This document shows positions 345 to 5,370 of a stretch of 64,000 bases of DNA, in pieces. The translations under genes were made by a program, and so were the position numbers. The notes beneath the pieces are model-generated. The model was given only the letters and a program-made list of their open reading frames with translations, had not been told where the DNA came from and ran no database searches. Position 1 is the stretch's first letter. Every line of letters begins with the position of its first letter. Source of the stretch: Nocardioides pinisoli (GTDB taxonomy: Bacteria > Actinomycetota > Actinomycetes > Propionibacteriales > Nocardioidaceae); contig NZ_JANARS010000003.1 in assembly GCF_024199985.1 (NCBI RefSeq), positions 124,001 to 188,000 of the forward strand, in the 5' to 3' direction.

Positions 345-1565
345 TCAGGAGTTGCTGTAGACCGCCGGTCCGCCGTCCTCGCCCGCTGCGTCCGGGCCGC
401 GCCCGGCCCAGGTCCAGGCATAGGCCGGGTCCTCCACGGCGAGGCCGCCCTCGCCCAGCTCCAGCGGGGCGAACGTGTCGACCATGACGGCCGACTCGTC
501 GAAGTAGGGCACGCCGAGGCTGGCCTCGATGGCGCTGGGCTGGGGGCCGTGCGCGTGGCCGCCGGGGTGCAGGCTGATCGAGCCGAGGTTGATGCCCGAG
601 CCCTTGCGGGCCTCGTAGTCGCCGCCGACGTAGAACATCACCTCGTCGGAGTCGACGTTGGAGTGGTAGTAGGGCACCGGGATCGCGAGGTCGTGGTAGT
701 CGACCTTGCGGGGCAGGAAGTTGCAGATGACGAAGTTCCAGCCCTCGAAGACCTGGTGCACCGGAGGCGGCTGGTGCACCTTGCCGGTGATCGGCATGTA
801 GTCCTCGATGTTGAACGTGTAGGGGTAGAGGCAGCCGTCCCAGCCGACCACGTCGAAGGGGTGCGTGGCATAGGTCAGCCGGGTGCCGACGATCCCCGCG
901 CTGGTGCGGTGCTTGACCAGGACCTCGACGTCGGTGCCGTCGGCCTGGAAGGTCTCGGCCGGGCCGTGGAGGTCGCGCTCGCAGTAGGGCGCGTGCTCGA
1001 GGAACTGACCGAAGCGCGAGAGGTAGCGCTTGGGCGGGTGGATGTGGCTGTTGGCCTCGATGGCGTAGAGGCGCGACGGCTCGGCCGGCACCCAGCGGTG
1101 GTCGGTCGCGCGCGGGACCACGACGTAGTCGCCGGCGCGGTAGGGCACGACGCCGAACACGGTCTCGACCACTCCGCTGCCCGTCTCGACGAAGACGCAC
1201 TCGTCGCCGATGGCGTTGCGGTAGAGCGGGGAGGGGTCGGTGCCGGTGACGACGTAGGTGAGGCGCACGTCGTTGTTGCCGAGGACCGTCCGGCGCCCCT
1301 CGACGGGGCACGTGCCGGTCTCGAGGTCGTGGAGCTCGAGGTGGCGCGGCTTGAGCGGGTGGTTGGGCGTACGCGTCTGGTCGGGCAGCTGCCAGACCTG
1401 GCTGTCGGTGATCGCGCTGGGGACGCCGCGGTGGTAGAGGAGGGAGGAGTCCGAGGAGAAGCCCTCCTCGCCCATCAGCTCCTCGCGGAAGAGGTGGCCG
1501 TCGTCGTCGCGCAGCTGCGTGTGGCGCTGCCGCGGCAGCCGGCCGAGTGCTCGGTAGTGGGCCAT
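345..1565 (-). CDS. hmgA: Homogentisate 1,2-dioxygenase
   Basis: A 406-residue protein with the family start (AHYRALGRLPRQRH), the YYHSNVDSDEV segment and the LHPGGHAHGPQP segment that carry the iron-binding His/Glu residues of homogentisate dioxygenase. It opens the aromatic ring of homogentisate with O2 to give maleylacetoacetate, the central step of tyrosine and phenylalanine breakdown in the cytosol. The ATG at 1565 is chosen because the family begins here; a TTG four codons upstream (1577) is the only in-frame alternative. It is transcribed divergently from the next gene and fahA across a 64-bp gap holding a perfect dyad, so one regulator probably controls both arms. Length is somewhat below the 430-440 of many relatives. 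Confidence 0.95.
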   Translation of the reverse strand: MAHYRALGRLPRQRHTQLRDDDGHLFREELMGEEGFSSDSSLLYHRGVPSAITDSQVWQLPDQTRTPNHPLKPRHLELHDLETGTCPVEGRRTVLGNNDVRLTYVVTGTDPSPLYRNAIGDECVFVETGSGVVETVFGVVPYRAGDYVVVPRATDHRWVPAEPSRLYAIEANSHIHPPKRYLSRFGQFLEHAPYCERDLHGPAETFQADGTDVEVLVKHRTSAGIVGTRLTYATHPFDVVGWDGCLYPYTFNIEDYMPITGKVHQPPPVHQVFEGWNFVICNFLPRKVDYHDLAIPVPYYHSNVDSDEVMFYVGGDYEARKGSGINLGSISLHPGGHAHGPQPSAIEASLGVPYFDESAVMVDTFAPLELGEGGLAVEDPAYAWTWAGRGPDAAGEDGGPAVYSNS

Positions 1566-1629: not shown

Positions 1630-2499
1630 GTGGACCCCCGTGACGCACCTGTCGACCCGACGCCGCCTCGCGCCTGGCCCGAGGAGTGGCGCGGCCTCGT
1701 CGACGACGCCGCGATCTTCCCGCCGGGCGACGTGCCGCTGCACGACGCCACCGCCGCCCACGTCGCGCGCCGGGGCGAGAGGTGGGCCGACCTGGTCGGC
1801 ACCTTCGTGCTCCGCGACACCGACCTCCCCCTCGTCCGCGGGTTCGACGCGCCGTTGTCGGTGGTCGTCACCGGCGGAGCGGGCCAGCTCGCCGGGCCCC
1901 TCGGCGCGGCGGCCCGGCTCGGGCTGCACGTCGCGGCCGTCGAGATCGCCGTGCGTGACGTGGACGACCCGGTGGGCAACGTGCGCCGCATCGACGCCGC
2001 CCTGCGCGCGGCGGACGTCGACGTACCGCTGTTCGTCGAGCTGCCGGGTCCTCCCACGGCCACCTGGCTCGCGGCGGCGGACGAGGTCGCGGCGTGCGAC
2101 CACCGGCTCAAGCTGCGCCTCGGCCACGTCGACCACGACCTCCTGCCCGACTCCGCGACCGTCGCCGCGTGGATCGACGCGGCGCTCGACCGCGAGATCC
2201 GGTTCAAGGCGACCGCCGGCCTGCACCGCGCCGTCCGCCACGACCCGGAGGGCGGCGGCGCCCACGGCTTCGTCAACGTGCTGGTCGCGACGAGGACGCT
2301 GTGGGACGGCGGCACGGTCGCCGACGCGACGGAGGTCCTCGAGCAGCGTGACGGCGCCGCGCTCGCGGCCGCTCTCGCCGACGGCGGCGTCGCGTCGGCC
2401 CGTCGGTGGTTCACCTCCTTCGGCTCGTGCTCGGTCACCGAGCCGCTCGACGACCTGATCACCCTCGGACTCGCTCCCGACGTCAAGGAGGACGCATGA
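1630..2499 (+). CDS. Unknown protein of the homogentisate pathway operon
   Basis: A 289-residue soluble protein with no signal peptide or membrane segment. I do not recognise a named family. Alternating hydrophobic strands and helices with segments such as LSVVVTGG, VPLFVELPG, RFKATAGLH and GFVNVLVA suggest an alpha/beta barrel. The GTG start at 1630 follows a TAGAGT box by six bases (leaderless). Its last codons overlap the ATG of fahA (ATGA), so the two are translationally coupled and very probably work together. The pathway needs a maleylacetoacetate isomerase between HmgA and FahA and no glutathione-transferase-like isomerase gene is visible, so an isomerase role is a reasonable guess but is only inferred from position. 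Confidence 0.8.
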   Translation: MDPRDAPVDPTPPRAWPEEWRGLVDDAAIFPPGDVPLHDATAAHVARRGERWADLVGTFVLRDTDLPLVRGFDAPLSVVVTGGAGQLAGPLGAAARLGLHVAAVEIAVRDVDDPVGNVRRIDAALRAADVDVPLFVELPGPPTATWLAAADEVAACDHRLKLRLGHVDHDLLPDSATVAAWIDAALDREIRFKATAGLHRAVRHDPEGGGAHGFVNVLVATRTLWDGGTVADATEVLEQRDGAALAAALADGGVASARRWFTSFGSCSVTEPLDDLITLGLAPDVKEDA

Positions 2500-3710
2500 C
2501 CGCGCCCAGCTGGGTCGACGGAGCCGCCGGCTCCGGCTTCGACGTCGACCACCTCCCGTTCGGCGTCTTCGCGCGCTCGGGGGAACGCCCGCGGGTGGGG
2601 GTGCGCATCGGCGACCAGGTGCTCGACCTCAGCGTGGTCGCGGCCGCCGACATGGTCGACACCCACGCGCTCTTCGACCAGCCGACCCTCAACCCGTTCA
2701 TGGCGGCCGGACCGGCCGTCTGGGCGTCGACCCGGGCCTGGGTGAGCGGGCTGCTCACCGACCAGACCGAGCGCGACCTCGTCGAGCCGGCGTTGGCACC
2801 GGTCGACTCCGTGCGGATGCTGCTGCCCTTCGCCGTCGGCGACTACGTCGACTTCTACGCCTCCGAGCACCACGCCTCCAACGTCGGTCGGATGTTCCGG
2901 CCCGACGCCGAGCCGCTCCTGCCCAACTGGAAGCACCTGCCCGTCGGCTACCACGGCCGCTCGGGCACGGTCGTCGTGTCGGGCACCGACGTCGTACGCC
3001 CCTGCGGGCAGCGCAAGGCACCCGCGGACGAGCGACCGACCTACGGCCCCTCCGAGCGGCTCGACATCGAGGCGGAGCTCGGGTTCGTCGTGGGCGTGCC
3101 CTCCGCGATGGGCGAGCGGGTCACCACCGCCGACTTCGCGCGGCACACCTTCGGCGTCGTGGGCCTCAACGACTGGTCGGCGCGCGACATCCAGGCCTGG
3201 GAGTACGTCCCGCTCGGGCCGTTCCTCGGCAAGTCGTTCGCGACGTCCGTCAGCGCGTGGGTCACCCCGCTGGCCGCGCTCGACGCCGCCTGGACCGACC
3301 TGCCCGGCCAGGACGACCCGGAGGTCCTCGACTACCTGCGGGTGGAGGGCCCGGCCGGGCTCGACATCGAGGTGGAGGTGGTGCTCGACGGCGAGGTCGT
3401 CGCGCGCCCGCCCTACCGCACCATGTACTGGTCGCCGGCCCAGATGCTGGCGCACACGACGGTCAACGGCGCGAGCGTCCGCACCGGCGACCTGTGGGGC
3501 TCCGGCACCGTGTCGGGCCCCGAGCGCGACCAGCGCGGCTCCCTCCTCGAGCTGAGCTGGGGCGGCAAGGAGCCGTTCACGGCCGGCGGACGCGAGCGCA
3601 CGTTCCTCGAGGACGGCGACGAGGTGACGCTGCGCTACTCCGCGCCCGGCACCGGTGGCGGCCGCATCACCCTCGGCGAGGTCACCGGCCGCATCCTGCC
3701 GGCGCGCTGA
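2496..3710 (+). CDS. fahA: Fumarylacetoacetase
   Basis: A 404-residue protein starting SWVDGAAGSGFDVDHLPFGVF, the typical N-terminal beta domain, followed by the catalytic fold with YVDFYASEHHASNVGRMF (first metal Asp plus the catalytic His), DIEAELGFVVG (two metal Glu) and LNDWSARDIQAWEYVPLGPF (metal Asp). It hydrolyses fumarylacetoacetate to fumarate and acetoacetate, ending tyrosine degradation. The ATG at 2496 overlaps the previous stop and is preceded by AAGGAGG at 2485-2491. Full length for the family and all key residues are present. Confidence 0.95.
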   Translation: MTAPSWVDGAAGSGFDVDHLPFGVFARSGERPRVGVRIGDQVLDLSVVAAADMVDTHALFDQPTLNPFMAAGPAVWASTRAWVSGLLTDQTERDLVEPALAPVDSVRMLLPFAVGDYVDFYASEHHASNVGRMFRPDAEPLLPNWKHLPVGYHGRSGTVVVSGTDVVRPCGQRKAPADERPTYGPSERLDIEAELGFVVGVPSAMGERVTTADFARHTFGVVGLNDWSARDIQAWEYVPLGPFLGKSFATSVSAWVTPLAALDAAWTDLPGQDDPEVLDYLRVEGPAGLDIEVEVVLDGEVVARPPYRTMYWSPAQMLAHTTVNGASVRTGDLWGSGTVSGPERDQRGSLLELSWGGKEPFTAGGRERTFLEDGDEVTLRYSAPGTGGGRITLGEVTGRILPAR

Positions 3711-4689: not shown

Positions 4690-5370
4690 TTGAGACTCCT
4701 GCTGATGCGCCACGGCCAGACCCACGCCAACGTCGCCGGCGAGCTCGACACCGCCCACCCCGGGCTCGACCTCACCGACCTCGGCCGGGCCCAGGCCGCG
4801 GCAGCCGCGAAGGCGATCGCCGACGAGCACCTCGACGCGATCTACGTCTCCAGCCGGGTGCGTACGCACCAGACGGCCGCGCCCACCGCCGAGGAGCGCG
4901 GGCTCGAGCCGGTCCAGCTCGACGGGCTGGAGGAGATCGCGGCCGGCGCCTTCGAGATGCGCAGCGACCACGACGCGGTCGCCGGCTACATCGGCTCCGT
5001 CGCGACGTGGCTCGAGGGCGACCTCGACCACCGGATGCCGGGCGGCGAGACCGGCCACGAGTTCCTCGCCCGCTACGACGCGGCCGTCCGCACCATCGTC
5101 GAGACCGGGCACGGCGCCGCGCTCGTCGTCAGCCACGGTGCCGCGCTCCGCACCTGGGTCTCCACGCGGATGGCCCCGCACCCCGACGCGCCGCCCGCGA
5201 CCCAGCCGCTCCACAACACCGCGCTCATCGTGCTCGAGGGCGACCACGACTCCGGCTGGGAGATGGTGTCCTGGCAGGGCCACGCCGTCGGCGGTGAGCT
5301 CCTCGAGGACCCCACCGCCGAGGACCCCACCGGCGACCTCGACCCCGACGACGACGGCGAGATCGGCTGA
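4690..5370 (+). CDS. Histidine phosphatase superfamily protein (phosphoglycerate-mutase-like)
   Basis: A 226-residue protein with the RHG motif (MRHGQT, residues 6-11), the second Arg block (SSRVRTHQTA), the Glu of LEEIAAGAFE and the second catalytic His in VVSHGAALRTW. It should transfer phosphate through His8 in a broad-specificity phosphatase reaction. The start is TTG at 4690, preceded by a weak GAGGA. The C-terminal 15 residues are an acidic tail (many Asp/Glu). It follows the phosphodiesterase by 39 bases and may be read from the same transcript. The exact substrate is unknown; a second member of the family lies at 60962-61639. Confidence 0.85.
   Translation: MRLLLMRHGQTHANVAGELDTAHPGLDLTDLGRAQAAAAAKAIADEHLDAIYVSSRVRTHQTAAPTAEERGLEPVQLDGLEEIAAGAFEMRSDHDAVAGYIGSVATWLEGDLDHRMPGGETGHEFLARYDAAVRTIVETGHGAALVVSHGAALRTWVSTRMAPHPDAPPATQPLHNTALIVLEGDHDSGWEMVSWQGHAVGGELLEDPTAEDPTGDLDPDDDGEIG

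Follow-up and report, generated by a model that had tools for sequence, protein, structure and literature searches.

The window, by which we mean the whole 64,000-nucleotide stretch of the Nocardioides pinisoli genome analysed here, contains close to its start a divergent pair of transcription units in which an unnamed gene, here called X, is flanked by genes for two enzymes of homogentisate degradation. The features of this locus are as follows.

345 to 1565, minus strand: hmgA, homogentisate 1,2-dioxygenase of a divergent subfamily (PF20510 and PF04209)
1566 to 1629, no strand: divergent intergenic region of 64 bp between hmgA and X, with inverted repeats and a possible shared operator
1630 to 2499, plus strand: X, predicted TIM-barrel protein of 289 amino acids and candidate glutathione-independent maleylacetoacetate isomerase (open reading frame, AF2 model, conserved hmgA/fahA context)
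2496 to 3710, plus strand: fahA, fumarylacetoacetase (TIGR01266, PF01557 and PF09298)

The open reading frame of X comprises 289 codons from a GTG start at 1630 to a TGA stop at 2497-2499, and the ATG start of fahA at 2496 gives a four-nucleotide overlap, ATGA, between the two genes. The sequence-only reading had described an unknown protein coupled to fahA through ATGA and situated exactly between hmgA and fahA, and had proposed from this position that it performs the isomerase step missing between the two enzymes; both parts of the description are confirmed by the coordinates given above. FahA scores 436.9 bits against the TIGR01266 cut-off of 375.3. HmgA exceeds the gathering scores of both HgmA Pfam domains and reaches just 60 bits on TIGR01015, for which the cut-off is 510, and we therefore assign it to a divergent HmgA subfamily. 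Weak scores on the HgmA Pfam models were also obtained for the HmgA-type open reading frames that adjoin X in Priestia and in a cyanobacterium. The intergenic region between hmgA and X contains the inverted repeat CGGACGC-AG-GCGTCCG (1590-1605) beside another inverted repeat, TCCGACTATCGGA (1581-1593). Among the intergenic stretches of 73 relatives, many have repeats similar to those at 1581-1605 of the window, which suggests a putative operator shared by hmgA and X, although on sequence grounds alone.

Judged by database comparison, X is a conserved family without a name, annotated as 'hypothetical protein' wherever it is present. The X protein of the window has no match in Pfam at E ≤ 1 (including PF11716), no match to TIGR01262 or to the glutathione transferase domains, and only two matches in NCBIfam, both at chance level (E about 0.1). 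A sequence search of the PDB likewise returned chance-level matches alone, and hence no solved relative; phage records gave no match, and none of 31 diverse members of the family matched an NCBIfam model at E ≤ 0.01. CbiZ (PF01955) did appear weakly in 14 of 56 members, with a best E of 2.5e-6, and in four of ten members scanned singly (L064, L065, L070 and L030), at 15-21 bits compared to a cut-off of 27. The matching part is the stretch holding TAGLHH...HGFLN, and we treated it as a local motif resemblance.

The classical isomerase of this pathway, MaiA, employs glutathione as a transient nucleophile. No glutathione-transferase-like isomerase had been noticed in the sequence-only reading, which named a maiA homologue elsewhere in the genome as an observation that would refute the role of X. 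Such a homologue was looked for in the window's genome with TIGR01262 at E ≤ 1e-3 and was not found. None of 246 genomes sampled from the same class contains a MaiA over the TIGR01262 cut-off either; the genome G045, with a match of 61 bits, also has X. In a control set the same model matched in three of 14 known genomes, in one of them over the cut-off, which indicates that the search works.

The association of X with the two flanking genes extends far beyond the window. A scan of GTDB with one genome per species yielded 93 relatives of X, and the best 80 of these loci were kept. Since fahA stands beside X in 78 of these best 80 (with hmgA there too in 75), and since the two genes overlap in 73 of the 77 loci that could be measured among 81 with the window included (by exactly four nucleotides in 61), the X-fahA arrangement is far beyond chance. 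Within the class, X is present in 82 of the 246 sampled genomes, and fahA lies within 3 kb of it in 71 of the 82, always on the same strand; hmgA lies within 3 kb in 71 as well, and both genes do so in 68. The orientation of hmgA relative to X is divergent in most class genomes and co-directional in others, and the pairing with X thus outlasts rearrangement. Co-occurrence points the same way, with X found in 74 of the 106 class genomes that have FahA together with the window's type of HmgA versus eight of the 140 others (Fisher p 7e-28, without correction for relatedness).

Outside the class the linkage persists. A sample of 198 genomes from the phylum contains X in ten, five of them from the window's class and five from other classes; in all of the latter five, fahA is found directly 3' of X, and a classical HgmA is located beside one. 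Sixteen plasmid records match the X protein of the window. Seven of these were inspected: six are annotated and have fahA next to X in every case, and the unannotated seventh has hmgA-X-fahA according to tblastn. Rhodococcus plasmids are among those with X next to fahA. On a Pseudonocardia plasmid (L168 2768-10169), hmgA-X-fahA is flanked by two transposase genes and is possibly a mobile homogentisate-degradation module, and on a Streptomyces plasmid the same three genes are followed by both subunits, A and B, of a CoA transferase. A more distant X used as the query retrieved eight further plasmid records, six from Priestia and one each from Tsukamurella and Kovacikia. The three Priestia records inspected have the operon hppD-X-fahA-aminotransferase-hmgA-permease with a four-nucleotide X/fahA overlap, and an AsnC-type regulator is found by the operon in both stretches that reach that far; in all six Priestia records the X match touches a fahA annotation. 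All enzymes of this operon except X can be assigned, as can all steps except the isomerization. The gene order in Tsukamurella tyrosinosolvens is hppD-hmgA-X-fahA. On the unannotated cyanobacterial plasmid from Kovacikia, open reading frames for X and fahA overlap by four nucleotides and lie opposite an HgmA-type open reading frame (PF20510), an hppD-like one (identified by eye from its translation), and an AMP-binding synthetase.

These neighborhoods also bear on the possibility that the substrate of X is acetoacetate, which FahA likewise releases, as would be the case for a Schiff-base acetoacetate decarboxylase. The lysine-bearing, class I aldolase-like fold predicted for X (see below) would be compatible with such chemistry. 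However, the Streptomyces plasmid operon already has both CoA-transferase subunits with which to use acetoacetate, the AMP-binding acyl-CoA synthetase of the cyanobacterial cluster would already do the same, and X precedes fahA rather than following it, so that we consider a role in acetoacetate metabolism highly improbable.

A search among barrel enzymes had been recommended on the basis of the sequence, and this guess turned out to be right. The AF2 model of X, built from 56 aligned sequences (pLDDT 93.6, pTM 0.90), has eight strands alternating with helices, and X is confidently predicted to be a TIM barrel with a DERA-like fold; the model is a β/α barrel, not the combination of a thioredoxin-like and a helical part that makes up the glutathione transferase fold. 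The nearest solved folds are DERA chains with Z scores of about 13 to 15.4, the best neighbor being 1n7k_A (Z 15.4, rmsd 3.1, 205 aligned), and plain Foldseek on the model returned mixed barrels with weak E-values. Homology to DERA was rejected at the level of sequence, as X has no TIGR00126 match and hhalign gave a probability of 0.1-0.2%. In the absence of any sequence-profile relation between X and DERA, the fold model is the only basis for the mechanism considered below, which does not draw on any inspection of atomic geometry.

In barrels of the TIM type, the active site is located at the C-terminal ends of the strands, and in DERA a lysine on strand 6 forms an imine with the substrate. 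DSSP assigns residues 159-163 of the X model, including K161, to strand 6 and residues 192-195, including K193, to strand 7; we take these to be the positions of the two lysines of DERA, without having superposed the structures residue by residue. D25, E105, E137, K161, R163, T195, H199, and C267 are found in, at, or just past the C-terminal strand ends of the model, and all of these residues, together with K193 and N216, are invariant in 16 X sequences from three phyla. In a wider set, position 193 is occupied by arginine in five linked copies, and K193 is therefore not strictly needed.

The fate of the putative active-site residues differs markedly between X copies that are linked to the pathway genes and those that are not. 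After removal of seven copies with identical cores, the set of E137, K161, H199, and C267 is complete in 124 of 126 distinct linked copies versus three of ten unlinked ones (Fisher p 2.8e-8). Two of the intact unlinked copies (L043 and L048) have fahA elsewhere in their genomes, and the third (L149) comes from a genome that is 80% complete and in which no fahA was found; the linked copies without the key residues are L160, which is a second copy in its genome, and L183. Five genomes (G092, G042, G171, G110, and G202) have no FahA or HmgA by these searches, and their X copies lack K161 and other key residues. The first of these belongs to the same genus as the window, and its X is 42% identical over the match. 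Unlinked copies are more divergent overall than linked ones, and in the X tree the degenerate copies occur in several places on long branches; a group formed by four of these copies may reflect long-branch attraction. The X copy of G092 (L148 3672-4508) adjoins a histidine-phosphatase gene that resembles the gene at 4690-5370 of the window, which is of similar length and lies two genes past fahA, an identity judged by eye.

Taken with the gene overlaps, these observations speak to a second alternative, namely that X acts on another step of the pathway, either as a C–C hydrolase converting maleylacetoacetate into maleate and acetoacetate or on a by-product, of which succinylacetoacetate is an example. 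C–C bond chemistry would be a natural task for a DERA-like barrel that has a lysine on strand 6, and both PMC4457819 and PMC9338888 cite a report of maleylacetoacetate hydrolase activity in Bacillus, with maleate given as the product in PMC9338888. Direct hydrolysis would, however, render FahA superfluous, yet X and fahA overlap in nearly all measurable loci, and for every intact X checked, FahA was found within its genome stretch or next to it, except for the one genome of 80% completeness. We therefore regard action on another step as unlikely.

X is not the only solution to the isomerization problem. The sequence-only reading held that absence of the protein from relatives that degrade homogentisate without MaiA would refute its role, and this applies in part: of the 106 class genomes that combine FahA with the HmgA type of the window, 32 lack X, and in these hmgA and fahA often abut directly. 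Other solutions must therefore exist. Because it is unknown whether, and how, homogentisate is degraded in these genomes, the absence limits the universality of X and does not refute its role. A broader profile (A2), applied to 58 genomes in which FahA is present and X absent, detected nothing real, its three 30-residue matches (E 0.19-0.39) being taken as chance. No common substitute gene emerged when, in search of a displaced gene in genomes without X, the open reading frames within a few kb of fahA in 40 stretches were clustered; the only widespread extra genes are hppD-like (Glyoxalase, PF00903) and an AsnC regulator, and ten further fahA neighbors comprise a CoA transferase and other genes, with no isomerase candidate among them. 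In G228, hmgA-fahA is accompanied by a degenerate X only. The loci L142, L143, and L128-L131 have hmgA and fahA directly abutting with no intact X between them, and the genome of L142 has an intact X elsewhere.

Genomes of this kind lend some weight to a third alternative, in which X has no catalytic function in the main path and instead serves as a regulator, a chaperone, or a repair factor for FahA or HmgA, while the isomerization is left to mycothiol or bacillithiol, or else to a different enzyme, for instance a mycothiol-dependent isomerase of the PF11716 family. Each of the 12 genomes tested does contain PF11716 paralogues, between four and 17 of them and 13 in the genome of the window, but they occur with and without X alike, so that their counts fail to separate the two groups and the family was discarded as a discriminating rival. 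A purely accessory function fits poorly with a barrel that looks catalytic and whose polar residues do not vary over three phyla, and also with the retention of X in Bacillota and a cyanobacterium, groups whose thiols differ. In favor of this alternative, a thiol-dependent, non-enzymatic bypass that uses glutathione is on record for mice (cited in PMC9338888). On balance, a non-catalytic X appears improbable to us.

Our preferred interpretation is that X is the maleylacetoacetate isomerase of the homogentisate pathway and works independently of glutathione, to which we assign a probability of roughly 0.77; the activity is inferred, and there is no assay. The missing-isomerase role proposed from position alone is now supported by the coupling to fahA in three phyla, the lack of MaiA, a predicted barrel with invariant residues, the loss of such residues in copies without the pathway, and operons in which X is the sole unassigned enzyme, while the activity itself remains unproven.

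Maleylacetoacetate contains a cis enone with a further keto group alongside it, and X would convert this product of HmgA into fumarylacetoacetate, the substrate of FahA, without glutathione. In the mechanism that we infer, C267, located past strand 8, would add reversibly to the cis double bond, the bond would rotate, and the thiol would leave, such that the protein's own thiol would stand in for glutathione. K161, R163, H199, and R258 would bind and polarize the diketo acid through its carboxylates and keto oxygens and provide a proton shuttle, and K161 may additionally react with a keto group to give an imine and thereby activate the enone further. Coupled translation through ATGA would match the amounts of isomerase and hydrolase. 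The complete picture, namely a cofactor-free cis-trans isomerase on a class I aldolase-like barrel that combines C267 as internal thiol with an imine at the strand-6 lysine, occurs in at least three phyla, represents the missing gene of the thiol-independent route, and travels on plasmids in hmgA-X-fahA modules, is put forward tentatively, its chances in our estimation falling slightly short of even.

The gap that X may fill is visible in the literature. For Bacillus anthracis, PMC4457819 states that no gene for maleylacetoacetate isomerase can be recognized in the genome and that the fate of maleylacetoacetate calls for more analysis, and genes for this isomerization were not directly identifiable in B. 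thuringiensis (PMC6193087). Rhodococcus ruber Chol-4 grows on homogentisate, and a figure legend names hmgA and hmgB for this pathway without an isomerase (PMC6498646); HmgA and HmgB were detected in Rhodococcus globerulus proteomes (PMC11889516), and general background is given in PMC10950700 and PMC11012174. No gene for a thiol-independent isomerase is named in the open-licence literature searched, to the extent that its text was available, and we do not claim that none is in print. X provides a definite, cloneable candidate for this gap in the catabolism of tyrosine and phenylalanine in glutathione-free bacteria, and brings a long-standing question within reach of a direct test. If our interpretation holds, a family of hypothetical proteins would gain a name, and an unrelated fold would be seen to catalyze what is elsewhere the work of a glutathione transferase.

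Among known systems, DERA (DeoC) resembles X in being the nearest solved fold and in having lysines on strands 6 and 7, but differs in its gene context, in the lack of any TIGR00126 match or profile similarity, and in the C-terminal FGSC motif of X. The mycothiol-dependent maleylpyruvate isomerase (PF11716), likewise from actinobacteria, is comparable in that it performs a thiol-type cis-trans isomerization of a related ring-cleavage product; it belongs to a different family, however, requires mycothiol, and has another fold. MaiA/GSTZ1 (TIGR01262, the zeta glutathione transferase) shares with X the expected reaction and the place in the pathway between HmgA and FahA, whereas X shows no sequence match to it, is predicted to be a TIM barrel instead of a glutathione transferase fold, and, by inference, relies on its own conserved cysteine with no need for glutathione. 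Finally, Hagedorn and Chapman reportedly described a glutathione-independent maleylacetoacetate isomerase of Gram-positive bacteria in 1985. To our knowledge no gene has been connected with that activity, and we infer that X would be its source.
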